Positions 4,036 through 61,562 of a DNA stretch of 64,000 nucleotides are shown one piece after another. Source of the DNA: Siphonodentalium dalli. Its lineage: Eukaryota > Mollusca > Scaphopoda > Gadilida > Siphonodentaliidae. The notes below the pieces were generated by a model. That model saw only the letters and a program-made list of their open reading frames with translations, made no database searches and had not been told where the DNA came from. The stretch covers positions 184,184,209-184,248,208 of the forward strand of contig CP136064.1 in assembly GCA_032622095.1 (NCBI GenBank), written 5' to 3'. Both the position numbers and the translations under genes were made by a program. Numbering within the stretch: the stretch's first letter is position 1; each line of letters starts with the position of its first letter.

Positions 4036-4166
4036 ATGTTGGCTCAACAGCGAGTCCAGCGATCCCTAAGCATTTCATCATTTTCGTCGGACACAGCTAG
4101 TTTAAATGGCGAACGTGTTCGAATGGGACCGTATTTCGAGGGAAATTTAACCCTTCTTGAAAAGAT
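4036..4166 (+). CDS. WD40 gene exon 1 (start codon, N-terminal tail)
   Basis: The ATG at 4036 is the first in frame after a stop at 4003-4005 and has A at -3, a fair Kozak context. It encodes 43 residues plus two bases (phase 2) before the donor GTAAGT at 4167. The first half is rich in Ser (S10, S12, S14, S15, S17, S18, S22) and looks disordered. The end, around residues 34-43 (Y-F-E-G-N-L-T-L-L-E-K), is the usual lead-in strand of a first WD blade. The leftover AT plus the first base of exon 2 gives Ile44, so the frame runs straight into exon 2. An upstream non-coding exon cannot be excluded. Confidence 0.82.
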
Positions 4167-4282
4167 GTAAGTTTAAATTAAAATATTATTAGTATTACTA
4201 AAAAATATAATAAAAAATAAATTTTAAATTAATGATATATTTAGACTTTTAAGACATTGGCACTAAATCCTGCAGAGCCAGA

Positions 4283-4298
4283 GGGGGGGGGGGGGGGG
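4283..4298. repeat. Poly-G run of 16
   Basis: Uninterrupted G run in intron 1, 116 bp after the donor. Similar homopolymer G/C runs occur at 19520-19533 (C14), 37030-37041 (C12), 45426-45437 (G12) and 51659-51688 (C30). Lengths may be affected by sequencing error. Confidence 0.85.
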
Positions 4299-4553
4299 TT
4301 GGGGTGTCCTTTGACACAATTAGGCCTAACAAAATTATACGTTTGTTTCCGCTATAAACGGACTGAAAAAAAATTGGGTTGGTAGTTAGGCAAAACTTTT
4401 TTTTTTTTTAAATCTTTTTTTTTTTTCAGGATGCAATTCACTGTGTCATATTTAAGGAAATTTTAGACATTACAGGCCATATTATTGCTAATTTGTTTAG
4501 CCCATAAAGATAAAACAAAAACACAATCTCAGGGAGATATAATAGTCCGTAAA

Positions 4554-10962: not shown

Positions 10963-11086
10963 TGATCATTGATGATCCCATAGGGAGCCTCACATATATA
11001 AGAGAATACTTTGGCCTAACAATATTTACCTTGACCTTGTAAGCTAGCGCATTCTCTTATATATGCGAGGCTCCCTATGGATATAT
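10963..11086. mobile_element. Partial copy of the double-hairpin TTAA MITE
   Basis: It contains CATAGGGAGCCTCACATATATAAGAGAATAC, the spacer GGCCTAACAATATTTACC and then GCATTCTCTTATATATGCGAGGCTCCCTATGG. This is the middle of the family seen complete at 23089-23354; both ends are missing. An AACCGAAACC-rich scrap at 10925-10950 may be a fragment of the 5311-6407 element type. Confidence 0.75.
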
Positions 11087-23088: not shown

Positions 23089-23354
23089 CCCTTTCATGAT
23101 GTGATCTGTGCTGGTGCAGCATTAAAGATCTTATGCCAGTGCATTCTCTTATGTATGCGAATCTCCCAAAAGGAGCCTCACATATATACCGGTAAGAGAA
23201 TGTACTGGCTTACAAGGTCAAGGTAAATATTATCGGGTCAATGTATTCTCTTATATATGCGAGGCTCCCTATGGGAGACTCTCATACGGTATATAAGAGA
23301 ATTCATTGGCACAGGGTTTTCGCAAAATTACAGGAAGCTCCAGTCATGAATGGG
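23089..23354. mobile_element. Double-hairpin TTAA MITE, complete copy
   Basis: TTAA at 23085-23088 and 23355-23358 flank CCCTTTCATGAT..GTCATGAATGGG. Two successive hairpins occupy the core. The first is CCAGTGCATTCTCTTATGTA paired with AAGAGAATGTACTGG. The second is CAATGTATTCTCTTATATAT paired with AAGAGAATTCATTGG. A conserved spacer (TACAAGGTCAAGGTAAATAT) separates them. Flanks are also conserved (GCTGGTGCAGCATTAAAGAT and GGCACAGGGTTTTCGC). The TTAA target and CCC start suggest piggyBac-type mobilisation. Confidence 0.86.
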
Positions 23355-33111: not shown

Positions 33112-33978
33112 TAGACCCCGAAGCCACGACAAATAGTTTTCATGGCTGGCTCAACCGATTTTCGTGGCTGGTTAGCTAGCTAAGCCGGCTCAGTCACGAC
33201 GTTCGTGGCTGACGAAATATGGCGGCTCAGCCGGCTGAGATGTTATCATTCAGCGTATTTTCGTTTCCGAAATGTTCCTAATCCCCTGTTACCGGTTATA
33301 GACGCCGTTTATTTAGCGTTTGTGGTGAACCCGTAGAATTCCAGACCACACGTAATCTTTTGATGTTGGGCTTTCCATTATGGCGAAAATTCACGAAGGA
33401 CTGGCATGGATATACTATGTAGTTTCCCATCTAATCGGTATATGTAGTTACATTGGGACTTCTGTCGACTTCAGACTGCTATCATCATGCCATCTTGCGA
33501 TATATGCATGCATCATTGAATGATGAACCCGATAGTAATGATATAGAATATTTCAAACTATTTTCTATTCTTATGTGTATATATTGACAAATGCCAGTGA
33601 TGTCTGAGACTGCATGGTGTTGTCGATATAAACAATTTATATTTTAACCCTTGCAATACCGAATGGATGCGCCCATTCAGTTATATGAAAGTATGCATTG
33701 GCATAGTCTATTCCGCATTAAGGGGCCAGGTGTTCTGATAATATAACAACCATGCCGTGTCCATGCGAGTATGCCAATATTAGGCAATGCGGTTTAGTTC
33801 TTTCGATTCACAGTACAGTTATGCTTGACATATAAGCCCATGCACACGGCTCAGCCATTTTACAATTCCGGTGGCGGAGATTTTTAAATGTGGCTGGCGT
33901 TTGAAATACTATGGCTGGCGGCGGCTTGTGGCCAATATGGCTGGCGGCGGCAGCGTACGGTGGCGGCTTCGGGCTCTA
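33112..33978. mobile_element. hAT-type non-autonomous element with perfect 8-bp TSD
   Basis: TAGACCCCGAAGCC at 33112 is complementary, with one mismatch, to GGCTTCGGGCTCTA ending 33978. The octamer ATATATGG flanks both sides (33104-33111 and 33979-33986). Subterminal zones repeat CGTGGCTGGC/GGCTCAGCCGGCT on the left and ATGGCTGGCGGCGGC on the right. These are GC-rich compared with the intron. No transposase remains. A scrap of the TTAA CCCTTTCTATAC family is inside (about 33650-33735). Confidence 0.88.
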
Positions 33979-34240
33979 ATATATGGAACTTAAAGATAAA
34001 GGCAGAAATCAGTACTTAGTATCATGTGTTGACTTTGGGAAGTAGGGGTGCCGAGCCATATGTTGACAAGTACTTTTTTATTTTGTACATTTTTTTTTTT
34101 TAAATTTTCACCCTGCTTCAGAATATTAGATAAAATGTATTATTAAAGGACTGCGTAATGTCCCAGTCCCCGATTATTTGCGTGCATGTATAGAGCCATA
34201 CTGTAAAATGCTGGGCTTTGAAGATTATGTGGGCCTTTAA

Positions 34241-34633
34241 CCCTTTACCCAACAGGAGTGCCCTGTGCCAATGCATTCTCTTATATATGCGAGTCGACCA
34301 TAGGTCGCCTCGCATATATAAGAGAATGCATTGGCTTAACACATTAAAAATTATAAAATTGTTAAAGAATGTAAGAAAAAAATGGTAAAAAGTGTTTTAA
34401 AAAGATTTTTTTTAGGCCAATGCATTCTCTTATATATGCGAGGCGACCTATGGTCGACTCGCATATATAAGAGAATGCATTGGCACAGGGCATAACTGTA
34501 ACTATCACAATGTGGTCAAGGAGCCGGTTCCAATGATATCCATATTTGTATGGTTCTATTGAGACAGACCGAAGATATTTTAGGCTGTTGAAGCTTTATT
34601 TGGCCGGGTTTGGCCGGTTTGTTGGGTAAAGGG
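34241..34633. mobile_element. TTAA MITE with CCCTTTACCCAACA ends and the shared hairpin core
   Basis: TTAA at 34237-34240 and 34634-34637. The ends CCCTTTACCCAACA and TGTTGGGTAAAGGG are exact complements. Inside are two copies of the CCAATGCATTCTCTTATATA hairpin, at 34270-34335 and 34417-34483. Their loops are CGACCATAGGTCG and CGACCTATGGTCG. The termini differ from the 23089 family but the hairpin core is the same. Confidence 0.85.
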
Positions 34634-34892
34634 TTAAATGAATCACTACGGAGACACCAAATTAATTTTCTTCCATACTCGTTCTCAGAAATTCTTGGGA
34701 TTACAGAGGGTACAAATAACATTTCTCTCCATATAGGGCTGTCAAGCATTAATACCAAGCAGTCAGTAAACAGAGTACTCGATAACCTATGTCAAAGGAA
34801 AATAAGGTGGCGACTTGGATTAAAATATGCGATTGATTTGGACAGATTAACATTAGATCTGTCAATACTTGAAGAAGTTTTATACATAATTT

Positions 34893-35258
34893 AGTGACGC
34901 TATCCCACATGATGAGCTAGCGTTACCAAATTCGCCCTCTGGGAATCTCATTCTGCTTAGGCCTCATTTGCTATGGGTAGAACTAGGATCAGATTGAAGT
35001 TCCCCAGTTGAAGATGGTGATGTTCACCTATTAGTCACCTCAATTATGCAATTTATCTTCCACAAATTAGGCGATATATAAACTGAACAGAAGGGAAAAA
35101 GTAACTAAAACAATGCTAATTTTAAACTATTTACTTCCCAGAGATGAGGCCTAAGAAGAACAAGGTCCCCAGAGGGTGAATTTGATGATGCTAACCTGCT
35201 CTAAATTCACCCTCTGGACACCTCATTCTTCAAATGTCAGACACACTATATCCAGGCT
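34893..35258. mobile_element. CCCCAGAGGGTGAATTT fold-back repeat, left end lost
   Basis: It contains the hairpin halves AAATTCGCCCTCTGGGAATC and GGTCCCCAGAGGGTGAATTT (about 35164) with AAATTCACCCTCTGGACACC (about 35203). It ends AAATGTCAGACACACTA. Same family as 42107-42498 and 51112-51532. Confidence 0.75.
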
Positions 35259-36575
35259 GGTATACATGTATATGAATGAATTTTACACTCATAGTTTCAA
35301 CCAATCGTGATGTCTTAGCACACCATATTTGGTGTCATCTGATCACATAAGTCGGATACTGAATTATTCTCATTGAGTCTTAACTAATGGAGGATCAATG
35401 AATGTAATTGGTTAAAAACTAAATTTGAGGTAATAGGACCATTGCTGTGGAGGCAAAATCGTTATCGATCTCCGGGAACATCGTATATTATAAGTTATCT
35501 CTGGCAATATTGGGGGTACATGGCTAATTAACACCGGAATGTAGATTTTGAACCCCGAGGCAGAGCTGAGGGGTTCAAAAAGAGACATCAAGGTATCCAA
35601 TCTCCACGTACACCATGATGTTGCTGGAGATAAAAATTTTGTCCCCGCAACAATAGCCATGTGGCCTCAATTTATGTGTGGTTTTCATCAGTTCTCACAT
35701 TAATTCACACCATTGAGAATATTCAGCAGCCGACTATGAATCCGGCGTCAGGTGACTCGGCATGCTAGAGCAATGTCACGATTGGTGGAAACTGCCAGTT
35801 CAAGGGTCATTCATATACCCCTGATGATTCGCGTGATCATATACTCACGATGTTTCGCGCATGTTCTCCTAAACCCTACTGTTAAGGGTGAAGGAGGGAC
35901 ATGGTAATTTGAACATGCATGGCATTGTAGTCAATAAGATTGCTTGTTACAACCAGATCATTTTAGGGTCAAGGGGATATGATACCACATATCAACATAC
36001 ACCTGCACCCCCCAATGTTTCTGGGGATAACTTATAATATCATAGTATATAATTCCTCTGTATCTGATAAACATGGTAGTGTCTTATTCTTTGATTACCT
36101 AACAATAGCATGTACCTAAATAAGCTAGTTGGTTAATTGCCATAATTATTCCAAGGTCTTTCACCAAAATAGTTTGCTAAATAATCAAACCAAAGAATAG
36201 CAATTGAATAGCAATGTGTTTAATTTGAAACTTCTTCAAATTTCATGGTATATAATATCTAGGTTTATGCATATTTGCTAATGTGGTTCAACAACCCAAG
36301 TGTAAACATACCACTGAGTTCCAGCAATGGATGATACTGTAGACTAGGTACAAGTGTTTGTGCCAATGCATATATTTTCATTTTCAAATTGGCTAAATAA
36401 TATAAGCATCGTCAACATTATTTCCATTGGGATTTCTGAAAAACTTTTTATTCCATTGAATCATATTGACATGTCCTTTGGAATGACAAGCTAATTTTGA
36501 TCTCCTACAAACAAATATTGGCGCAGGATACTGAATGGGATCTGTCTGGGACTTTGGGGCTGTTTATCTTAGTTA
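35259..36575. other. Intron 2 stretch, nothing recognised
   Basis: A local inverted pair exists around 35537-35585 (TTTTGAACCCCGAGGC / GAGGGGTTCAAAAA), and around 35440-35660 GGAGGCAAAATCG / AAAAATTTTGTCCCCGC. These suggest a small old palindromic element, but boundaries could not be fixed. Confidence 0.35.
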
Positions 36576-36692
36576 CAGTAATTCCCTAAATAATCGACTC
36601 CTTAACCACAGCAGAATTATGGGTAATTTTTCAGGATTTAGTAGGAAATATGGCTTGTTGCCATTCATCGCCATCGGAAAGCTCTCGAATCG
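36576..36692. mobile_element. Mariner-like MITE, copy 3, left half
   Basis: Starts CAGTAATTCCCTAAATAATC after TA and runs to GGAAAGCTCTCG. It is then replaced by AATCGGATTGAGTACCTTTAA, the right end of the AGGTACTCAATCC TTAA family (to 36712). The two families were fused by recombination or deletion. Confidence 0.75.
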
Positions 36693-37169
36693 GATTGAGT
36701 ACCTTTAATAAACCAAAGCAAAAAGGTAACTTTCTGTGTGATATAACATGTACGTGGTGTGGTGCACTCTATTTGAGACATACATCTAGTTCAAACATAA
36801 AATTCTGACCCGATCAGCAATATCAACCCGACAAGACTTAAAAATCAATTATACCATTGCCAATCTATCAACCCCAGTAGAACATGATTATCCTTCAAAA
36901 CAATAACTCTGTGCAGCAGGTTACAGCCAACCACCTGCACACACATACTATTTAATACACAGGCTTCTGCGTCTCGCCAAGTGAGTCTTCACTGAATAGA
37001 ATAGTCTACCGGTATATGTAGCACTGATACCCCCCCCCCCCTGGATAAGTGGTCCTGTTATGATGGTAGTTTGTCAATTCAACCATTATGTCGATTTATC
37101 AACCTTTTATGACAAAATATTTACATAGCCCGTCTGTGTTACACTATTATGTTCAGTGATTGGTCAAGT

Positions 37170-37290
37170 GCCAGTTGGAAATGTTCAGATAATATGTTCA
37201 ACAAATATGGCCATTTGTTGAATTTATTATCGGAACATTTCCTATGGGAACTATACTCGTCAATGAGTATTTAGTATAGAAAGGGTTCAA
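37170..37290. mobile_element. Right end of a TTAA MITE, CCCTTTCTATACTAAAT family
   Basis: AAATGTTCAGATAATATGTTCA pairs with TGAATTTATTATCGGAACATTT, followed by CGTCAATGAGTATTTAGTAT and AGAAAGGGTTCAA. The terminal TTAA has decayed to TTCA. Confidence 0.7.
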
Positions 37291-37429
37291 CTATGATAAA
37301 TAGGTGGAAATTATTAATAATTGAATGATGTTTTCTGCTACCAATTGGAAATTTATGCAAAACCTATAATGTTGAGCAAGGTCATTCATGTTGCCAGTTT
37401 GAACACTTTAAAAGTATCTTCTTTTTGAA

Positions 37430-37925
37430 CTATTGCCATGGGTTGGTCATCCATCGTCTGTCTGTCAACATTTTCCGTGTAGCACACCCTACTACATGTA
37501 GACTACAGGCCACATCCCTCATCTGATTGTCACCAAACTTCATATGGATCATTTGGGGTGATCTCTAGATGGGAACTTACTATTACCATTTTTTCCGAAT
37601 TTCATTGAAAAACATGGCCACCAGTGGCCATCTTGGATTTCACTTTTCAATCCATTAGCACACCATGCAGCCCACATTTATTGGCTGTCGGCAGCCATCT
37701 TGATTTTACTCTGTGCATCACTAAATCCGTTGGCACACCCAATGGGCAACATCCCTCATCAGATCGTCACTAAACTTCCATTTGTTCCTCAGGGTGACTT
37801 GAGTTTACCATTTTATACAAATTCTGTTAAAATATTTAGTTGGCACACCATACAGGCCACATCCCTCGTCCAATCTTCACTAAACTTCATATTGATCCTC
37901 GGGGTGACCTGTGGAATATAGGTAA
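37430..37925 (+). repeat. Diverged GCCATGG..GTCTGTCTGTC..CATCTTGGATTT repeat
   Basis: A TATTGCCATGGGTTGGTCATC head is followed by units holding CATGGCCACCAGTGGCCATC and TTGGATTTCACTTTTCAATCC. Related to the array at 48330-49815. Three degenerate units of about 150 bp. Confidence 0.65.
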
Positions 37926-37952
37926 AATTATAAACAAGAACTGCAATGTTAG

Positions 37953-38290
37953 TAGTTCAAGTCTGCTTGTAGGTAAACAAGCTAGGATATTGGGATAGTG
38001 AAATGCTGATTTACGTCCAAGACCGTCTGGATACCCATCCTTTAGCATGCTTTACGCCCAGACCTGCATGGTGGCAGGATTTGTCATCTATTTTACTTGA
38101 TATTACATAACAAATAAATACATGATGCTATATATATCGGAAAGAGTGACATCTTATGGTCATAATGATGTATAATAATCTTTCATGTTAAATTATACAT
38201 AGAATATTCCAGTTTATTAGGACTAACATCAATTTGTTTACATTTAAACTGAAAGCCGGAGCGAGAGGTCAACTGTGTTCGTACTTTTAA
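37953..38290 (-). mobile_element. Truncated copy of the 56817-58168 hAT element
   Basis: It starts with the same terminal words (TAGTTCAAGTCTGCTTGTAG and AAGCTAGGATATTGG). It continues with GATGCTATATATATCGGAAAG and GAGTGACATCTTATGGTCAT, which is the reverse complement of 57955-58005. Only one end is present. Confidence 0.75.
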
Positions 38291-39704
38291 AAATTATCTA
38301 AACATTGCAATCTAATGTATTTTCCACATTGATCTACCTCTTTCAATTGGCAACTGTTGTGGAGTTCAGAACAAATAACTTGATTTCTATGGAATAACCT
38401 GTTTATTGTCACCATTGTGATATTTGATTACATTTAATGGTCAAGCCTGGATATAATTGTTTTTTGAGTGTCTGACAAAATGACAGGCACCAAAGATTCG
38501 GCGTCTGACATTTGAAAAGTGTGTCTGTCATTTACCTGGTATCAATAAAGAGCAGCAATTAGTTGTTTTTTAGTCCATTCCAATGCACAAATTAGATTCA
38601 TTGATGTACCATGTTATGAATTATGGTGTTTTACATCACTTTTAGCTGAAGCTCATATTATCATGTCATAATGTGACAGGGGTGCAAAGTCAGACAAGGC
38701 TGTCATTTACAGTATGTCTCTGCTGAATTCTTTTCCAGTTTCAAAAATACTATTACATTATTAGGCAGTGGTTACCAAGGCCCTGTTTCATCTCAGTATG
38801 TTAGCCCATGGCCCCATGCCTAAGTCAATAGACAAGAACTGACACGTCACACATGTGACATGCTACCCAGGAACCACACCGGATCACAAATTTGAAGTAT
38901 ATGGGATGTCTCGGACATATATATCCTACGCCGTGCTTCCCCCAAGTAAACACGAGCACATGTTTCAAAACGCGGCGATTTAAAAACTACCCGGTATGAA
39001 TTTTTTCGGAATTTCTTCCGCTAAATCTCCAACTAACACCCTTAACTTGTGGAATATATTACACTTGTGCTGATTTAACTTGTGACATCTCCGTGTATCT
39101 TACGTCAAACGAGAAAAACACGACGATGTGTATTTCTTGGTTGGAGTTTCCCCCCAGTGGCAGCCATTTTTTCTGGGTTTTTCACTTTCTAAAAATAGAA
39201 AGTCGTAAATAGTGCGGACGTGAAGGCAGCGATAATTCGCAGTTTGCGATCAATCATCAATCGCGGACAATTTAGGTTAGAGGTTGCATTAAAATTTCAT
39301 TTATAGGTCCTGTATACGGAACGGATCATCAACATGTTTTCGGTAAAACGCGTTGTATTGGTGGGGGGATTTGATATTTAGTGCACAGTAGTGGTAATTG
39401 AATGTCTTTGCGGCGGATAATACATCTACTTGTTGTTTTCCCCTTAATTATATATTTTTTGTGAAGATAATGGGCGCCGGACAAACTGACGGACGATAAT
39501 AAGGCGGCGCCGGTCATCAGTGTATTTGGCTCGGTCAATGACCATGTCCGACCTCTTATATCCAGGCTTGTTAATGGTGGTTTTATGTGAGCTGATCACT
39601 AACGCCTGTTATAGGATGAGTATCCAGACTGTCTCGGATGTACATGCAGACTTAGACTACAATGTTGTGAAATGTGTCACTAATATTTCAGTTTACCTGT
39701 TGTA
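38291..39704. other. Intron 2 stretch; 38.85-39.55 kb less AT-rich
   Basis: The stretch 38850-39550 has more CpG than its surroundings (for example ACGTCAAACG, GTGCGGACGTG, AGGCGGCGCCGG) and no recognised repeat. It could be an old regulatory segment or an unrecognised element. No coding frame, donor or acceptor pair was convincing. Confidence 0.3.
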
Positions 39705-40850
39705 TTAACCCTTTCTATATTAAATACGCATTGATGAGTAGTTCCCATAGGAAATATTCAGATAATAAGTTCAATTAACCCATTATATACTAAATAATCA
39801 TTGACGAGTAGTTCCTTAGGAAATGTTCAGATATTAAGTTAATTAACCATTTCTATACTAAATGCTCATTGATGAGTAGTTCCCATAGGAAATATTCAGA
39901 TGATAAGTTCAATTAACCCTTTCTGAACTAAATAATCATTGATGAGTAGTTACCATAGGGTATGTTCAAATGATAAGTTCAATTAAGCCTTTCTATACTA
40001 AATGATCATTGACAAGTATTCCCTTAGGAAACGTTCAGATAATAAGTTCAATTAACCCTTTATATACTAAACTAGAAGGTGACCCGACTTCGTCCGGGCT
40101 CTGACCTTGAATTGTCCATTTTGAAGGTCAAGGTCAAGTGGGGTCACGATTTGACCAGTCCAAAACACTGCCCGGACAAAAGTACCCGACAAACGTGCCC
40201 GTCGAAATCCATCCGGTTTTACCCGATTTGACCTTGAATTGATCATTTTGAAGGTCAAGGTCTGGTCGGGGTCACGATTGGACCCGTCCAAAACAATCAG
40301 TGGACAAAAGTAACCCCACGTATCAAATTTCGTCGAAATCCCATCAAAATTGGCGATTTGACCTTGAAGTTACCCGATTTCAAGGTCACGTCGCACGGGC
40401 AAATTAATAGGCCTATGCCAACCCCTGGTCGAACATATCCCCACATACCAAGTTTCATCGAAATCCCGTGATATCCGGGCGTTTGACCTTGAAATTACCC
40501 GATTTCAAGGTGAAGGTCACGTCGCACGGGCAAATAAATAGGCCTATGCCCGTTCCCGGCCGCAAATACCCCCACATACCAAGTTTCATCGAAATCGGCT
40601 AGGCAGTTTTCGAGTCCATCGCGAACAGACACACAGACAGACAGACAGATCTTCCAAAATATATAATAGATAATCAATAATCATTGATGAGTAGTTCCCA
40701 TAGGAAATGTTCAGTTAATAAGTTCAATTGACCCTTTCTATACTAAAAAATCATTGACGAGTAGTTCCCTTAGGAAATTTTCATACAGTATATAAACAAC
40801 GACTGTTTGTTGAACTTATTATCAGAACATTTCCAATCAAAGAATATGAA
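39705..40850. repeat. 70-bp tandem array (7 units) made from a TTAA MITE end, split by a Helitron
   Basis: Units begin at TTAA-like sites 39705, 39775, 39843, 39913, 39983, 40052 and 40728. Each reads CCCTTTCTATACTAAAT then ATTGATGAGTAGTTCCCATA then AATAAGTTCAA. The sixth unit is split by 40072-40670. The last unit runs into the family's normal interior (TTGAACTTATTATCAGAAC, to about 40850). Confidence 0.88.
40072..40670 (-). mobile_element. Helitron-like element with clean A/T insertion site
   Basis: Minus strand: it starts TCTATTATATATTTTGGAAG (from 40670). It ends with the hairpin CCCGGACGAAGTCGGG, then TCACCTTCTAG (to 40072). On the plus strand it sits between A40071 and T40671. Removing it restores the array word ACTAAA+TAATCA seen in sister units, apart from an extra 7-bp TAATCAA. 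CTAG after a hairpin, no TSD and A/T flanks fit Helitrons. It is 599 bp, has no Rep/helicase and contains GACCTTGAA(A/T)T(T/G)-type repeats. Confidence 0.82.
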
Positions 40851-41442
40851 TAATTTTTACCACAGTTGGCCATTGTTGAACTTACAATTATACTGAATTT
40901 TCACTCTGTACTGACATTTTGCATTGTGACTCCAGTAACATTGGTCAGAGTTGTATGTTATTCGGAATGCTAATAGACCAGGACTACATGTAATTGAAGG
41001 ATACTGACAGGTTCAGTCCATGTATTTTTGTCAGATATATTGCCCTTGTAGGAAATAGGTAGATTCTCCATCTTTGCTTTACATCTAATGTTATCATTGT
41101 TTATCAAGTACCAGCTGATGGAGTTGAATATCTTTGGAATAGTGATACCTGTACGTCAATATGAGCGAAAGGATACACTGAGTTTTATCCATTGATTTCC
41201 TCGGAGTGACAGACCTTCATGGATTTAGATCCATACAGATATTTAGTATTGCCCACTCTCTAAATTGAGCATTTAATAGGGGCATTTGCCATGCCTGGCA
41301 TTGCACTTGTTATATGACACATGGTGAAAAATGGACATGTTCTATACATTATCCACCATAGATCTGGAACATATTGTCATTGGAAGAATGCATGCTTTTT
41401 GAAAAAATTACCTTGTAAGCCTTTTTATTTAATTTTTTGCAG

Positions 41443-41587
41443 ATCTATGATCCATACAAATACACAAATCTCTACACATTGTCAGATGAGAATACAAGAC
41501 AGTTCCACTTGCCTGTCACACAGATTCGGTTCCATGTCTACGCTCTTGGAGAGAAAGAAGAATACTCACATATACTGCTTGCTACAT
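41443..41587 (+). CDS. WD40 gene exon 3 (end of blade 1, blade 2)
   Basis: The acceptor TTTTTTGCAG ends at 41442 and the donor GTAACT begins at 41588. It gives 48 codons (residues 73-120) plus one base. It opens with I-Y-D-P, closing blade 1, and continues to a blade-2 strand (V-T-Q-I-R-F) with an insertion of charged residues (L-G-E-K-E-E-Y, about 106-112). It ends in the strand H-I-L-L-A-T. The residual T plus AT of exon 4 makes Tyr121. Intron 2, about 21.8 kb, is the largest of the gene. Confidence 0.93.
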
Positions 41588-42106
41588 GTAACTATTATCT
41601 TACAATTAGATTATTATTTTCAAATACAAGCATAAACAACTAGACTGTTGCTGATTCCGTATTCTGGATGTCAACAAGCTGTATCCTGGATGGCAAATGT
41701 GGATGCACTTGGGCTCACAGGCCCCTAGCGGAAATTATTAAAATACCGGTACCAATATAGACTATACCAGTATAAAGGTTCCAATGATCGATTTTGGATC
41801 AAACCGCACCAACTATGAAAACCCTACTACATTCTAGAAATCAATAATTGCAGCCAAAATATCCTCAGGTGTGTCTTATTGGCAATAAAATTCCCTTTCA
41901 TTTGACATATAACTTTAAAGAATCCTTTGACCTAGTTATAAAATCAATATTTTCGAGCGATAATTTGTCACGAACATGTACCGTACTTAAACTTAAATGC
42001 TCATATATGTTCCGCAAGTCATTCCATCCATTCCTTTTTATTTCATCATCTTAGGATCATTCTATATTCCTTGCATTTTATCATATTAGTCCAATTATCT
42101 GCAAAT

Positions 42107-42498
42107 AGTGTGTCTGTCATTTGCAGAATGAAGTCCCCAGAGGGTAAATTTAGTGATGCTATCCCGCACAGCTGGCTAGCATCACAAAATATCTATAGTA
42201 TCAAATTAACATTGTTTTTAGTTACTTTTTCCCTTCTGTTCAGTTTCTATATCCCCTAATTTGCAGAAGATAAATAATTTGCATATTCAAAGTGACTAGT
42301 GGATGAATATCACCAAATTCAACTGGGGAACTTCAATCTGATACTAGGTCTCCTAAAGTGATTGAGGCCTATAGGCAGAATGAGGTTCCCAGAGGGTGAA
42401 TTTGGTGATGCTACTAGTAGCTCACAATGCGGAATAGCGTCACTAAATTCACCCAATGTGGACCTTATTCTGCAAATGTCAGACACACTAACTCCAGA
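42107..42498. mobile_element. CCCCAGAGGGTGAATTT fold-back repeat, copy 2
   Basis: The outer ends AGTGTGTCTGTCATTTGCAG and CTGCAAATGTCAGACACACT are complementary. Two internal hairpins use CCCCAGAGGGTAAATTTAGT / ACAAAATATC and CCCAGAGGGTGAATTTGGTG / CACTAAATTCACCC. The middle contains TTTAGTTACTTTTTCCCTTC, also seen inverted in the 34893 copy. Confidence 0.82.
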
Positions 42499-42723
42499 CT
42501 TTAAGGACAATACTATTAATATAAAACAGTAATGCAGCTGGGACAGGAATTGGCTGTATAACGACGTTTGAAATCATGAATGATGTTACAGGATTGTGTA
42601 TGATACTAGCTTTTGCATTGAGTTAGGATTATTCCAACATTCCTGTTATATTTTTCCACTGCAAAATCGCCAAAACACCCCCAACACTCCCAACACTCAA
42701 TGTTACGACGTAATTTTATGTAA

Positions 42724-42995
42724 TCCTTTCATGACAGGAGCTGCGCTGGCCCAACATTAAATATCCTATGCCAGTGCATTCTCTATATATGCGAGTCTCA
42801 CATTCAGGTAGAGAGCCTTGCATATATAAGAGAATGGACTGGATTACAAGGTCAAGGTAAATATTTTTAGGCCAATGTATTCTCTTATATACATGTATAT
42901 GCGAGGCTCCCTTTGGGAGACGCGCATATATATATAAGAGAATGCATTGGCACAGGGTTTTTGCAAACTTTCAGGAAGCTTCAGTCATGAGAGGG
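42724..42995. mobile_element. Double-hairpin TTAA MITE
   Basis: It runs from TCCTTTCATGAC to GTCATGAGAGGG, with TTAA on the right (42996-42999) and GTAA, a decayed TTAA, on the left. Both hairpins are present (AGTGCATTCTCTATATATGC / AAGAGAATGGACTGG, then CAATGTATTCTCTTATATAC / AAGAGAATGCATTGG). A 65-bp near-perfect palindrome (42980-43044) extends across its right end. Confidence 0.83.
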
Positions 42996-43053
42996 TTAAT
43001 TTGAAGGGGTTAAACCCCTTCAAATTAACTCTCTCATGACTGAAAATAATTAA

Positions 43054-43370
43054 AGGTACTCAATCATCAAGTTACAACAACAACATTTCTTCAAACTACG
43101 CTTTTGTTATCAAAATATTTGGCCGTATTACCACTTGATTTTAGAGTTATCCATCTTCATCCGCAATTTTGTCCAAGTCCAAGACAACCGGTTTGACACT
43201 TGTTTCTGGGCCATATATAATTAAACATTTCGAGAAATAACAAATTTCAAAAATCAATATCTGATCACTCTGAGCTTTGATGGGTGGGTTCCTCGACTTG
43301 AATCAAATATTTTTCACCCCTGAAGCCAAAGAAATAGTCATTTGGCAGCATTAATTCGGATTGACTACCA
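43054..43370. mobile_element. TTAA MITE, AGGTACTCAATCC family, copy 2
   Basis: Between TTAA 43050-43053 and TTAA 43371-43374. Starts AGGTACTCAATCATCAAG and ends GCATTAATTCGGATTGACTACCA. It shares TTTTAGAGTTATCCATCTTCAT and GATCACTCTGAGCTTTGATG with 52761-53206, which is in the opposite orientation. It ends 32 bp before exon 4, so its right end may overlap the branch-point region. Confidence 0.82.
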
Positions 43371-43402
43371 TTAATTTATTTCACTTTGTCCTGTTTTAAT
43401 AG

Positions 43403-43592
43403 ATGCCTCTGGTCTTGTCAAGTTTTGGCATTACACATCCGGCAAATGTCTGCATACAATAAATGAAGACAGGCAGACATTGACCACCACTCTGAACCCA
43501 GATGGACGACTGTTCCTGACAGCTGGCGCTGATCCACAAATACATCTCTATGATGAACAGACCAAACAATTAGTGAATACAATGGAACCGAG
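43403..43592 (+). CDS. WD40 gene exon 4 (end of blade 2, blade 3)
   Basis: The acceptor TTTTAATAG ends at 43402 and the donor GTAAAT starts at 43593. It encodes residues 121-183 and two bases of Ser184. It contains the blade-2 terminus G-L-V-K-F-W-H (124-130) followed by T-S-G-K-C. Blade 3 follows, with L-N-P-D-G-R-L-F-L-T-A-G and I-H-L-Y-D (167-171). It is the longest exon seen. Intron 3 upstream is only 1.8 kb but contains three MITE-type inserts, one ending 32 bp before this exon. Confidence 0.94.
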
Positions 43593-43656
43593 GTAAATAC
43601 CGTAGTGTACTGAATATCAATTGCTCAAATTGTCTAGGATTGATTTTGACAGTTAA

Positions 43657-43956
43657 AGGGAGACTGCACCTAAATCCATTTACTGTAATTTATGGGGCCA
43701 TCTCCTACACAATTCAACAGAACATGTGCAACAAATGAATGAATTTGAGTCAGGGATGTTTGAAAAATACCCTAATTTACTCTATGAACGATATAAAACA
43801 ACATGATACTAGTAATTATAATGAAAATGAGTAAATGACTTAAGCCTTTTACTTAATTTTGTTATAATTATCATATTAATTCTTTTTTTGTATATTTTCT
43901 GTTGAGTATAGTAGGAGATGTCCCCATAAATGGCTAGATTTAGATACGCTCTCCCT
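43657..43956. mobile_element. TTAA MITE, AGGGAGACTGCACC family
   Basis: TTAA at 43653-43656 and 43957-43960. The ends AGGGAGACTGCACCTAAAT and ATTTAGATACGCTCTCCCT are inverted with three mismatches. The arms continue through ATGGGGCCATCTCCTAC / GTAGGAGATGTCCCCAT. The right-hand TTAA is shared with the next element. Confidence 0.85.
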
Positions 43957-43960
43957 TTAA

Positions 43961-44192
43961 CCCTTTGAGTGCCAGGGGCCGATCTCATCGGCCCTAAACC
44001 TACAAAATAAGTCTGTTAAAGAATATAAGAATAAATTATTAAAATTGTAAAAGATTGTAAAAAAAATAAATTGTTAGGCCAATGCATTCTCTTATATATG
44101 CGAGGCGACCTATGGTCGACTCGCATATATAAGAGAATGCATTGGCACAGGGTATATGGGTTGATACAAAAATCGACCTGGCACTCAAAGGG
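43961..44192. mobile_element. TTAA MITE, CCCTTTGAGTGCCAG ends with single hairpin core
   Basis: Between TTAA 43957-43960 (shared with the previous element) and TTAA 44193-44196. The ends CCCTTTGAGTGCCAG and CTGGCACTCAAAGGG are exact complements. The core has one CCAATGCATTCTCTTATATA hairpin with loop CGACCTATGGTCG, identical to one in 34241-34633. Confidence 0.88.
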
Positions 44193-44799
44193 TTAAGCAT
44201 ATAGAGAAATAGGTACTTGATATATAGTTATTAATGAACTGGTTGGATTGAGTTTCAGACTTCAATAGCTGTGAACACAACAAAGTCATCTTGAGGAGTT
44301 AAGTTATTAACCATCTGAAATGTCACTTGTACCATGCTAACTTCACCATTTATATAACTCAGTCTTAATTAGAGACCTGATTTCCTTCCATCTTGAAAAG
44401 AAATACCTGAATTCTTGAACAGTCCTCTGGACTTGAAAAGTCATGGAAAATAGCTTCTTTTTCACCTTACTAAAATGTATATAACAAATTCTACAATGAA
44501 ATGATTGACTTATATCATTATTACCCCAGTTTTTTTGGGGCATTGATGAGCCATTATCAATCAGGAGGAAGTATCCTAGAGTATCTCATTCATGAAAATC
44601 AGGATTAACATACCAGTGGTTGATACCAGGACACTACTAGAGGGATTTCATTGTCCACATTTGAAATTCCAAACTTTCAAAGTCTGAGTATTCCATTTAC
44701 ACCCTCATTGAGTTTAAATTTTCCACTTTGTGCCATGAGTTTTTTTTTTTTCTTTTTATAATTTTATTAACATTATATGATATGTACATATTATTGGTA

Positions 44800-50629: not shown

Positions 50630-50865
50630 CCCTTTCATGAGCTGCGCTGCATTAAAAATCTTGTGCCAGTGCATTCTCTTATATAAATGCGAGTTTCCCC
50701 ATGGGAACATTGCATTTATAAGATTATGTACTGGCTCACAAGATATAGGTAAATATTGTTAGGCCAATGTATTCTCTTATATATGCAAGGCTCCCTGTGG
50801 GAGACTCGTATATATAAGATAATGCATTGACACAGGGTTTTCAAAAAATTTCAGGCAGGTCATGG
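50630..50865. mobile_element. Double-hairpin TTAA MITE
   Basis: TTAA 50626-50629 and 50866-50869 flank CCCTTTCATGAGCTGCGCTG..GTCATGG. Both hairpins are present; the first uses CTTATATAAATGCGAG / TGCATTTATAAG, showing compensating changes. Confidence 0.82.
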
Positions 50866-51111
50866 TTAAATGGTTAAAAAAAACTGTCGTAGAACAAATA
50901 ACCTATTTAAAATAAATATTCCAATGATGTATATTCTTAATTTTGCTCCATTTAGAATTTTCAAACTAAACCTGCCCTATATATATTTCTAGAGGTGTTT
51001 GCGTGAGATAATTGTTTGAATTTCGCTTTCATGTATCTGGGTTGTTTGCTGAACTTATAATGAATTAACTGGACATTTCCTGAGTGAACTTTCTCATTGG
51101 GTCCTATGCAG

Positions 51112-53206: not shown

Positions 53207-53527
53207 TTAACATAGTCTTAGACAACAGTCAATATTTATATCAGTTTCAAAATGAAACTTCGTCATGTAATCAGATTAATTACATAGCCATATACATGCC
53301 TGCATAGTTTATAGAAGATTGTTCACCTCTCATAGGCATCTATCCTGAATTTCTACATGTTCTGAACTGAACTCATTATTGCATTTGTTTGTTATGACTT
53401 GATGCTGATGGTACAATGAGAACTTAATTGATTTCTATGACATGTAGTATTGACCTGTCACATTTCGTTGAATTTTTGCGAAAAAAAGCACGAGTCATTC
53501 CAAATAATCCCCAGATTTAAAATTTAA

Positions 53528-53800
53528 CCCTTTCTATACTAAATGGATTCTCCCAATCAGCTATAAAAGTATGCATTGAAACGGTCTATTATTAATTTGG
53601 TTGGGTGTTTGGGTAATAAAAGCAGACCACAGACAGTAAAAATACAAGAGAAGAATGATTCATATTTATAGGTGGGAAATGTTCAGTTAATTAGTTCAAC
53701 AAACGACCTATGGATGTACCGGTATGGTCATTTGTTGAACTTATTATCTGAACATTTCCTAAGGGAACTATTCGTCAATGAGTATTTAGTATAGAAAGGG
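53528..53800. mobile_element. TTAA MITE, CCCTTTCTATACTAAAT family, complete
   Basis: From CCCTTTCTATACTAAATGGA (after TTAA 53524-53527) to TATTTAGTATAGAAAGGG, then TTGA 53801-53804 (one change from TTAA). The ends are exact complements for 17 bp. The TTGA is shared with the following double-hairpin element. Confidence 0.85.
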
Positions 53801-53804
53801 TTGA

Positions 53805-54058
53805 CCCTTCCATGACTGGAGCTTCCTGAAATATTGTGAAAACCCTGTGCCAATGCATTCTCTCAATTATGCGAGCCTCACATAGGGAGCCTCGCATATA
53901 TAAGAGAATACATTGGCCTTACATTATTTACCTTGTAAGCTAGTGCATTCTCTTATACATGTATATGCAGGCTCCCAATGGGAGACTCGCATATATAAGA
54001 GAATGCACTGGCACATGATCTTCAATGCTGCACCAGCGCTGCTCCCCGTCATTAAGGG
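53805..54058. mobile_element. Double-hairpin TTAA MITE, abutting the previous one
   Basis: It starts CCCTTCCATGACTGGAGCTT directly after the shared TTGA and ends CCCCGTCATTAAGGG before TTAA 54059-54062. Both hairpins are present, in the reverse order to 23089-23354. Confidence 0.83.
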
Positions 54059-54866: not shown

Positions 54867-55120
54867 CCCTCCCATGATGGGAGCTGCGCTGGTGCAGCAT
54901 TAGAGGTCCTGTGCCAGTGCATTTTCTTATACATGCTAGTAGCCATAGGGAGCCTTGCATATACAAGAGAATGCACTGGCTTACAATGTCAATGTGATTA
55001 TAGTTAGGCCAATGTATTCTCTCATATATACAAGGCTCCCCATGGGAGACTCTCATATATAAGAGAATGCAATGGCACAGGGTTTTCACAAAATTTCAGT
55101 AAGCTCCAGTCATGGATGGG
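54867..55120. mobile_element. Double-hairpin TTAA MITE
   Basis: TTAA 54863-54866 and 55121-55124 flank CCCTCCCATGATGGGAGCTG..CCAGTCATGGATGGG. Both hairpins are present with slightly decayed arms (CAGTGCATTTTCTTATACAT / ACAAGAGAATGCACTGG). Confidence 0.84.
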
Positions 55121-61314: not shown

Positions 61315-61562
61315 CCCTTTCATGACTGGAGCTTCCTGAAATTTTGTGAAAACCCTGTGCCAATGCATTCTCTTATATATGCAAGTCTCCCATAGGGAGT
61401 CTCGCATATATAAGAGAATACATTGGCCTAACAATATTTACCTGGACCTGGATGCTCTTATATATGTGAGGCTCCCTGGGAGACTCGCATATATACCGGT
61501 AAGAGAATGCACTGGCACAGGATCTTTAATGCTGCACCAGTGCAGCTCTCATCATGAAAGGG
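61315..61562. mobile_element. Double-hairpin TTAA MITE, 49 bp before the microexon
   Basis: It starts CCCTTTCATGACTGGAGCTT after TTAA 61311-61314 and ends TCATCATGAAAGGG at 61562. The right TTAA has decayed to TTGC. Both hairpins are present, the second shortened in its left arm. Its end lies close to the acceptor of exon 6. Confidence 0.84.

Follow-up and report, generated by a model that had tools for sequence, protein, structure and literature searches.

Conserved interiors in MITEs and related elements

Families of miniature inverted-repeat transposable elements (MITEs) are usually defined by their ends, with ends and interior assumed to be inherited together. Here we describe a hairpin-bearing core module that lies between unlike ends in the scaphopod Siphonodentalium dalli, starting from a 64,000-nucleotide stretch of contig CP136064.1 (assembly GCA_032622095.1, forward-strand positions 184,184,209 to 184,248,208), referred to below as the window. 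A conserved centre in families with unrelated heads and tails is familiar from the core domains of short interspersed nuclear elements (CORE, V, and Deu); these are retrotransposons copied through RNA, whereas the present module is a hairpin in DNA elements. Three of its host families (F1, F2, and F3) resemble piggyBac-type TTAA MITEs in their TTAA flanks and CCC-type ends, and the genome is rich in piggyBac transposases. They differ from such MITEs in combining a common interior with varying ends, and a fourth host family (F4) is not flanked by TTAA.

The closest precedent is provided by the CMITEs of Acropora corals. The original report describes TTAA duplications, mostly CCCTTT-type ends, and tandem arrays, and notes that the interiors of MITE families usually differ; CMITE families have differing terminal inverted repeats (TIRs) around a conserved internal region, whose origin is termed a mystery (Wang et al. 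2010, PMC2872659). According to that report, CMITEs are about 100 bp long with a 75-base internal region, their number in A. millepora is estimated at 1600 copies, and CMITE-IN is a new element formed when one MITE inserted into another (PMC2872659). The likeness is one of layout and lies in the TTAA flanks, the different TIRs, and an interior conserved across families. Unlike the approximately 100-bp CMITEs, the present elements are 232 bp and longer, carry 67-nt hairpins, and account for more than 300,000 exact core words. They further differ from the CMITEs in that one host family is not at TTAA, another family is outright recombinant, and fossils of successive steps are present. Galileo and similar elements likewise show ectopic recombination among copies (PMC4168063); there the exchange takes place within one element, whereas here it extends across families with different target sites. 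Beyond the coral CMITEs, our literature search, limited to titles and the opening lines of abstracts, surfaced no report of one interior in MITEs with unrelated ends.

We consider it probable that the S. dalli module is a modular cassette that was spread as elements nested within one another, switched their outer ends, and recombined ectopically. A single interior is found here with at least four sets of ends, in two classes of target site, and in one visible recombinant family, and the apparent stages of one acquisition of the core, by F3, are still readable. The case provides a worked mechanism for the puzzle of conserved interiors described from corals in 2010 and opens a test of whether hairpin interiors aid MITE amplification.

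The core module and its host families

In the window, the ends of F1 (CCCTTTCATGA), F2 (CCCTTTACCCAACA), and F3 (CCCTTTGAGTGCCAG) each lie at TTAA and carry the terminal motif CC[C/T]T, beginning with CCCTTT or near variants. The first-pass annotation, made from the sequence alone, gave the coordinates and ends of the TTAA-bounded F2 and F3 copies correctly (393 bp with two hairpins and 232 bp with one, respectively; Table 1), and its claim of one hairpin shared between different ends is borne out in the window for all three families. Its statement that all copies insert at TTAA holds for F1 to F3 but fails genome-wide, where F4 bears the module without TTAA. The hairpin it singled out is indeed common to the families, but the shared unit exceeds it and in F1, F2, and F4 spans CCCTGTGCC to GGCACAGGG, spacer included. 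The TTAA target duplication flanks the window copies of F2 and F3 on either side and is found at many other loci; in some F1 copies one side is changed. Allowing up to three mismatches, the core 20-mer matches the window 28 times, against 0.04 expected from shuffles. The three F2 and F3 hairpins are near-perfect 67-nt stem-loops of -36.3 to -38.7 kcal/mol as single-stranded DNA (folding z of -14.6 to -15.3 versus shuffles), and the arms of the F2 module (34252-34339 and 34412-34499) are 95% complementary. The F1 copies, near 23.1, 42.7, 50.6, 53.8, 54.9, and 61.3 kb, are more varied. A known structured RNA was considered and rejected, with no Rfam match at gathering score in 34100-44400.

The genome searched comprises 2.23 Gb in nine contigs, with the window on contig C4. 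A search with the core alone, as the first-pass annotation had advised, returned the exact 20-mer 314,200 times (157,092 + 157,108) and no match to a reversed control; the exact outer core edge GAATGCATTGGCACAGGG occurs 156,886 times. Exact end words number 91,648 for F2, 23,235 for F3, and 22,606 for F4. A random sample of 20 segments of 6 kb (120 kb), placed regardless of the core, contained 43 core half-sites (at most four mismatches) within 12 core-bearing elements, of which seven are F2 (including one whose ends are decayed), three F4, one a truncated F4-type element, and one F1. Targeted loci were picked by core or end words, mostly from contig C1, which has segmental duplicates (L045/L046, L031/L047, L042-L044, L048/L053, L116/L117, L128/L130, L142/L143, L073/L074, and others); duplicates were dropped from the F4 flank count and retained in the hairpin-consensus, end-comparison, and end-pair counts. 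Among all fetched loci, mostly chosen by words, the core lies between 13/13 F2, 14/16 F3, and 19/22 F4 end pairs; in the random sample the corresponding counts are 6/6, 0/1, and 3/3.

When elements are aligned outward from the core, similarity between families halts at a single position outside the hairpin, the C of CCCTGTGCC. The edges fall on the same base on both sides in F1, F2, and F4, and on one side in F3. Beyond the edge stand AAAA or AAGA-like sequences in F1, GG and TATG in F2, CATATA in F3 (on its one side), and mostly TTTA in F4. Inside the edges lie the hairpin and a spacer that is A/T-rich in F2, F3, and F4 and that in F4 holds an additional inverted-repeat insert, M2 (ACCCTGCAGGGAGCCCC...). 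Over 67 positions the hairpin consensus is identical in F2, F3, and F4 (67/67), and two F1 groups match it at 61-62/67. Hairpin identity within groups is lower in F1 (0.85-0.86) than in F2 to F4 (0.97-0.98), which makes F1 the older set. Elements that combine F1 ends with the later GTCGACC core type are also present (L025 and L058) and are a likely donor.

Two further arrangements involve the core and its spacer. At L027 and L028, the F1 hairpin and spacer are multiplied as head-to-tail units of about 97 bp inside F1-type sequence. At L081 (about 406-2404), the spacer of an F2 copy is interrupted at TTAA by approximately 2 kb, the second instance of TTAA insertion into a core spacer.

F4 elements have TGTGACCCGCCATATC ends, starting TGTGACCCGCCATATCAAATCCAGTCG, and carry the same core module as the F1 to F3 hosts between 2-bp, mostly TA flanks. 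The two flanking bases agree on both sides in 13 of 18 distinct intact elements, compared with a shuffle mean of 6.2 (p = 0.0004); the pairs are TA/TA in eight, TT/TT in three, AA/AA in one, TG/TG in one, and unequal in five. Set against a Tc1/mariner-type MITE, in which duplication is strictly of TA, eight of the 18 elements thus show the TA pair. L082 and L086, in which the right end is interrupted, were left out of this count, and with these two included the figure is 14/20 (p = 0.0025). The flank test on the 20 elements gave no support for longer target duplications, and no TTAA target duplication was found for F4. Genome-wide, 17,497 exact F4 end words have exact CCCTGTGCCAATGC 12-32 bases on.

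Two side features of F4 elements were seen. The interrupted right ends of L082 (about 525-635) and L086 hold an M2-like inverted-repeat insert, which has a repeat of part of the end on either side of it. A long F4-ended element in L074 (and L073) contains a 177-amino-acid open reading frame of the Bcl-2 family (L074 688-1221; PF00452, E = 1.7e-13), situated between the outer hairpin arms and further inverted repeats, an apparent gene capture. L073 and L074 resemble duplicates of one region.

A fifth family, F5, is a recombinant family in which ends have been directly swapped. The junction word GGGTATT occurs 911 times genome-wide, and of the 12 loci read, five are F5 and three F1 (a pair of which are duplicates), with single cases of F3, of a composite in an F1 copy, of a solo core, and of F6, a repeat that is uncharacterised and recurs as L031/L047. 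All five F5 copies, at separate places, have an F4-type interior with M2 between both F2 ends. On the left, the F2 end is present in 5/5 copies, two with small changes; on the right, GGGTA is joined to TTTTAGGCTGTTGAAGC... of the F2 right end (a shorter version in L118), and a short TA at this junction is common to the F2 and F4-type sources. A GGGA junction occurs at 1,015 places, and the eight read are six F2 with one altered base (two of them duplicates), one F1, and one broken F4 type. L085 is a hybrid of an F1-like left half and an F4 right half, broken within the second hairpin region, and L141 is an F2 element terminating exactly at the core edge.

Proposed assembly of the families and alternative explanations

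We propose that the module (CCCTGTGCC, hairpin, AT-rich spacer, inverted hairpin, and GGCACAGGG) is oldest in F1 TTAA MITEs and that elements with unrelated ends would later have taken it up and then amplified it. One route would be nesting, in which a coreless F3-type MITE inserted at TTAA inside the core spacer. The composite would then have been moved by the left end of the nested copy together with another F3-type right end beyond the core, after which the buried inner end may have shrunk and a further deletion given the short F3; in this putative order of stages, the outer ends would be used by a piggyBac-like transposase. In a second route, recombination through the common core would have produced F5, presumably by break repair or gene conversion with template switching. 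Possibly, the core itself has also moved into TA, which would leave cores with both edges exact and none of the known ends, as at three loci.

Candidate intermediates of the nesting route are found among F3-type sequences. L003, from the random sample, contains a coreless, TTAA-bounded F3-type element (4153-4414); it corresponds to the left portion of long F3 and finishes ...CAAAATAAGCCTGGCACTGAAAGAG-TTAA. In the core-bearing L045 and its duplicate L046, this same end, CTGGCACTGAAAGAG, lies buried within the element and is followed by TTAAAGAAGATAAG, the core spacer, with TTAA kept; CTGGCACTGAAAGAG then TTAAAG stands where F3 has just CTG then TTAAAG. The same buried F3 end is kept in L055, with TTAA gone, and in L035, L040, L079, L026, and the window copy CTG-TTAAAG is all that remains of it. 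The order of stages proposed above would be the simplest one for these observed sequences; it is inferred from them, as is the transposition. The suggestion of the first-pass annotation that a core moves between terminal sets gains support from the identical 67-position hairpin consensus, the unlike ends, the F4 target site, and the F5 swap, but its wording of a mobile core exceeds the evidence, as F3 shows an end-bearing MITE landing in the core spacer rather than the core jumping.

A PF13843 profile search of the genome gave 128 piggyBac matches, and 20 of these loci were read. Two of them resemble the long end of F2 next to a TTAA site (29/36 positions in L104 and 26/36 in L106, against 23 for the best of 300 shuffles), with TTAACCCTTT sites at position 4 of L104 and position 36 of L106 that include the spaced CCGGCC words. 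The transposase domain follows these F2-like sites after about 1.4 kb; opposite ends were not found. L104 and L106 are possible relatives of the source of the F2 transposase and may serve as leads. L093 and L097 have GAGTGCC after TTAA, like F3, with a score of 20 that is within the controls (best 23). Many piggyBac copies with a 562-amino-acid frame have one in-frame TGA, as if a stop-bearing copy was amplified.

Several observations weigh against a spread by nesting and exchange of ends. Among the 20 of 128 piggyBac loci, none has ends identical to those of F1, F2, or F3, and the F1 and F3 ends match nothing there above shuffled controls. No coreless F2 was found, all 6 random-sample and all 13 fetched end pairs bearing the core. 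A two-anchor pattern for coreless F4 was fitted strictly by only three loci and yielded no sure coreless parent: L153 is short and coreless, in L154 the core is collapsed onto its two edges, and L155 has a short other interior. The first uptake of the module by F2 and F4 is therefore undocumented. The coreless element of L003 need not be ancestral, since it could be a copy that was once nested in a composite and left it again. Recombination with random breakpoints does not account for the edges being identical in F2, F3, and F4. Finally, most targeted loci lie at one end of contig C1, which is segmentally duplicated.

The recurrence of one edge base across host families would be explained if the core were itself a small DNA element with ends (A)CCCTG...CAGGG(T), inserting at TA and parasitising MITEs that then amplify it, an alternative that is possible but on balance doubtful. 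Three solo cores (L138/L120, L145, and L152) have both exact edges, none of the F1 to F4 ends, and TA beyond each edge. Among the fetched loci, no F1 to F4 sequence matches the flanks of these cores, and two random loci match a portion of the right flank of L120. Further, the units at L119, L144, and L151 begin at the left edge of M2 and finish at the right edge of the core, with TA before the left edge in 2/3, and TA stands outside the one edge of F3 and mostly outside both edges of F4, against a background TA frequency of 0.086. The TA may have been inherited, since all six solo and M2-edge loci were retrieved with search words that contained the right-hand TA and the left TTTA of the three full copies resembles the T-run of F4; F1 and F2 usually lack TA at the edge, and L119 sits in an F1 copy with filler sequence. 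Solo copies are also rare, with the GGGTAGT context at 17 places genome-wide against 156,886 edges; the 13 read comprise two solo cores, two M2-to-core composites, one partial copy, and eight F1, F2, or F4 copies or remnants. No empty site was found within this one assembly without relatives, in which no search was aimed at empty sites. The three TA-flanked solo cores are no more than suggestive of core movement. We consider possible, but less likely than not, the broader proposal of a TA-inserting passenger element with fixed ends that parasitises MITEs across superfamilies, is amplified by their transposases, and is reshuffled by nesting and recombination, with interiors and ends inherited independently.

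Exchange by repair alone, that is, ectopic recombination and template switching among hairpins with neither core transposition nor nesting, would fit the TA common to both sources at the F5 right junction, the L085 hybrid broken within its second hairpin region, and the L141 element that stops exactly at the core edge. We regard it as unlikely, as the buried end, with its TTAA in L045, is a transposition signature and exact core edges recur.

A common origin of the ends finds little support in the comparison of families. With the first six bases removed, end-to-core sequences are shuffle-like in 12 of 13 between-family comparisons, or in 8 of 9 without the impure F1b set, whose loose pattern let in members of other families and so lowered its flank identity to 0.592; F3 versus F4 gives an uncorrected p of 0.012. 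As their hairpins are identical and their ends unlike, F2 and F4 look like separate elements with a recent common interior. Slow divergence of the ends was rejected on F4, F5, and these comparisons, and ends evolving fast around a selected core, as the first-pass annotation had offered, are not supported, given the same swap and target site and the pairing of unlike ends with identical hairpins. Graded intermediate ends, which it had named as evidence for simple divergence, were sought in part: none appeared in the places read, and the listed matches to a gapped, F1-excluding pattern, all in the first 7.4 Mb of C1, had only F2 or F3 ends. Divergence of a single family with the hairpin held constant by selection is highly improbable: some drift of ends does occur inside families (F3 ends come in a GAGTGCC and a CAGTGCC version, at times with one of each on a single element, and F1 has two related ends, z = 4.5) and the F3-F4 flanks lean the same way, but F4 departs in target site as well as ends, F5 joins two sets outright, the other 12 comparisons are not significant, and hairpin and flank identities are close within families (0.977/0.959 for the F2 long side, 0.978/0.926 for the F2 short side, 0.977/0.963 for F3, and 0.966/0.930 for F4); hairpins, being chosen by match, are favoured over flanks.

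Features of the window

Coordinates of the core-bearing elements are collected in Table 1.

Table 1. Core-bearing elements and their parts in the 64,000-nucleotide window
Feature	Position	Strand	Remark
F2 element, CCCTTTACCCAACA ends, two hairpins	34241..34633	+	TTAA at 34237-34240 and 34634-34637
F2 core module, CCCTGTGCC to GGCACAGGG (hairpin, AT-rich spacer, inverted hairpin)	34261..34490	+	
F2 hairpin 1, 67 nt	34268..34334	+	
F2 hairpin 2, inverted relative to hairpin 1	34417..34483	+	
F3 element, CCCTTTGAGTGCCAG ends, one hairpin	43961..44192	+	TTAA at 43957-43960 and 44193-44196
F3 hairpin	44079..44145	+	GGCACAGGG edge finishing at 44152
F3 junction CTG-TTAA, F3-type CAAAATAAGTCTG against core spacer TTAAAGAATATAAG	44013..44019	+	Read as nested-insertion scar
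F1 element (CCCTTTCATGA ends), two hairpins, older copy	23089..23354	+	
F1 element, left end slightly decayed	42725..42995	+	
F1 element	50630..50873	+	
F1 element adjoining another TTAA MITE	53805..54058	+	
F1 element	54867..55120	+	
F1 element, right TTAA altered	61315..61562	+	
F1-type fragment, two hairpin halves, without ends	10978..11080	+	

Two other repeats were observed in the window. Another TTAA MITE family, at 33644-33740 and 53524-53800, carries TATATGAAAGTATGCATTGGCATAG or a decayed form of it, which closely resembles half of the core hairpin, and is a possible distant relative. At 39704-40071 lie tandem 70-bp units, each starting with a TTAACCCTTTCTATACTAAA-like MITE end.

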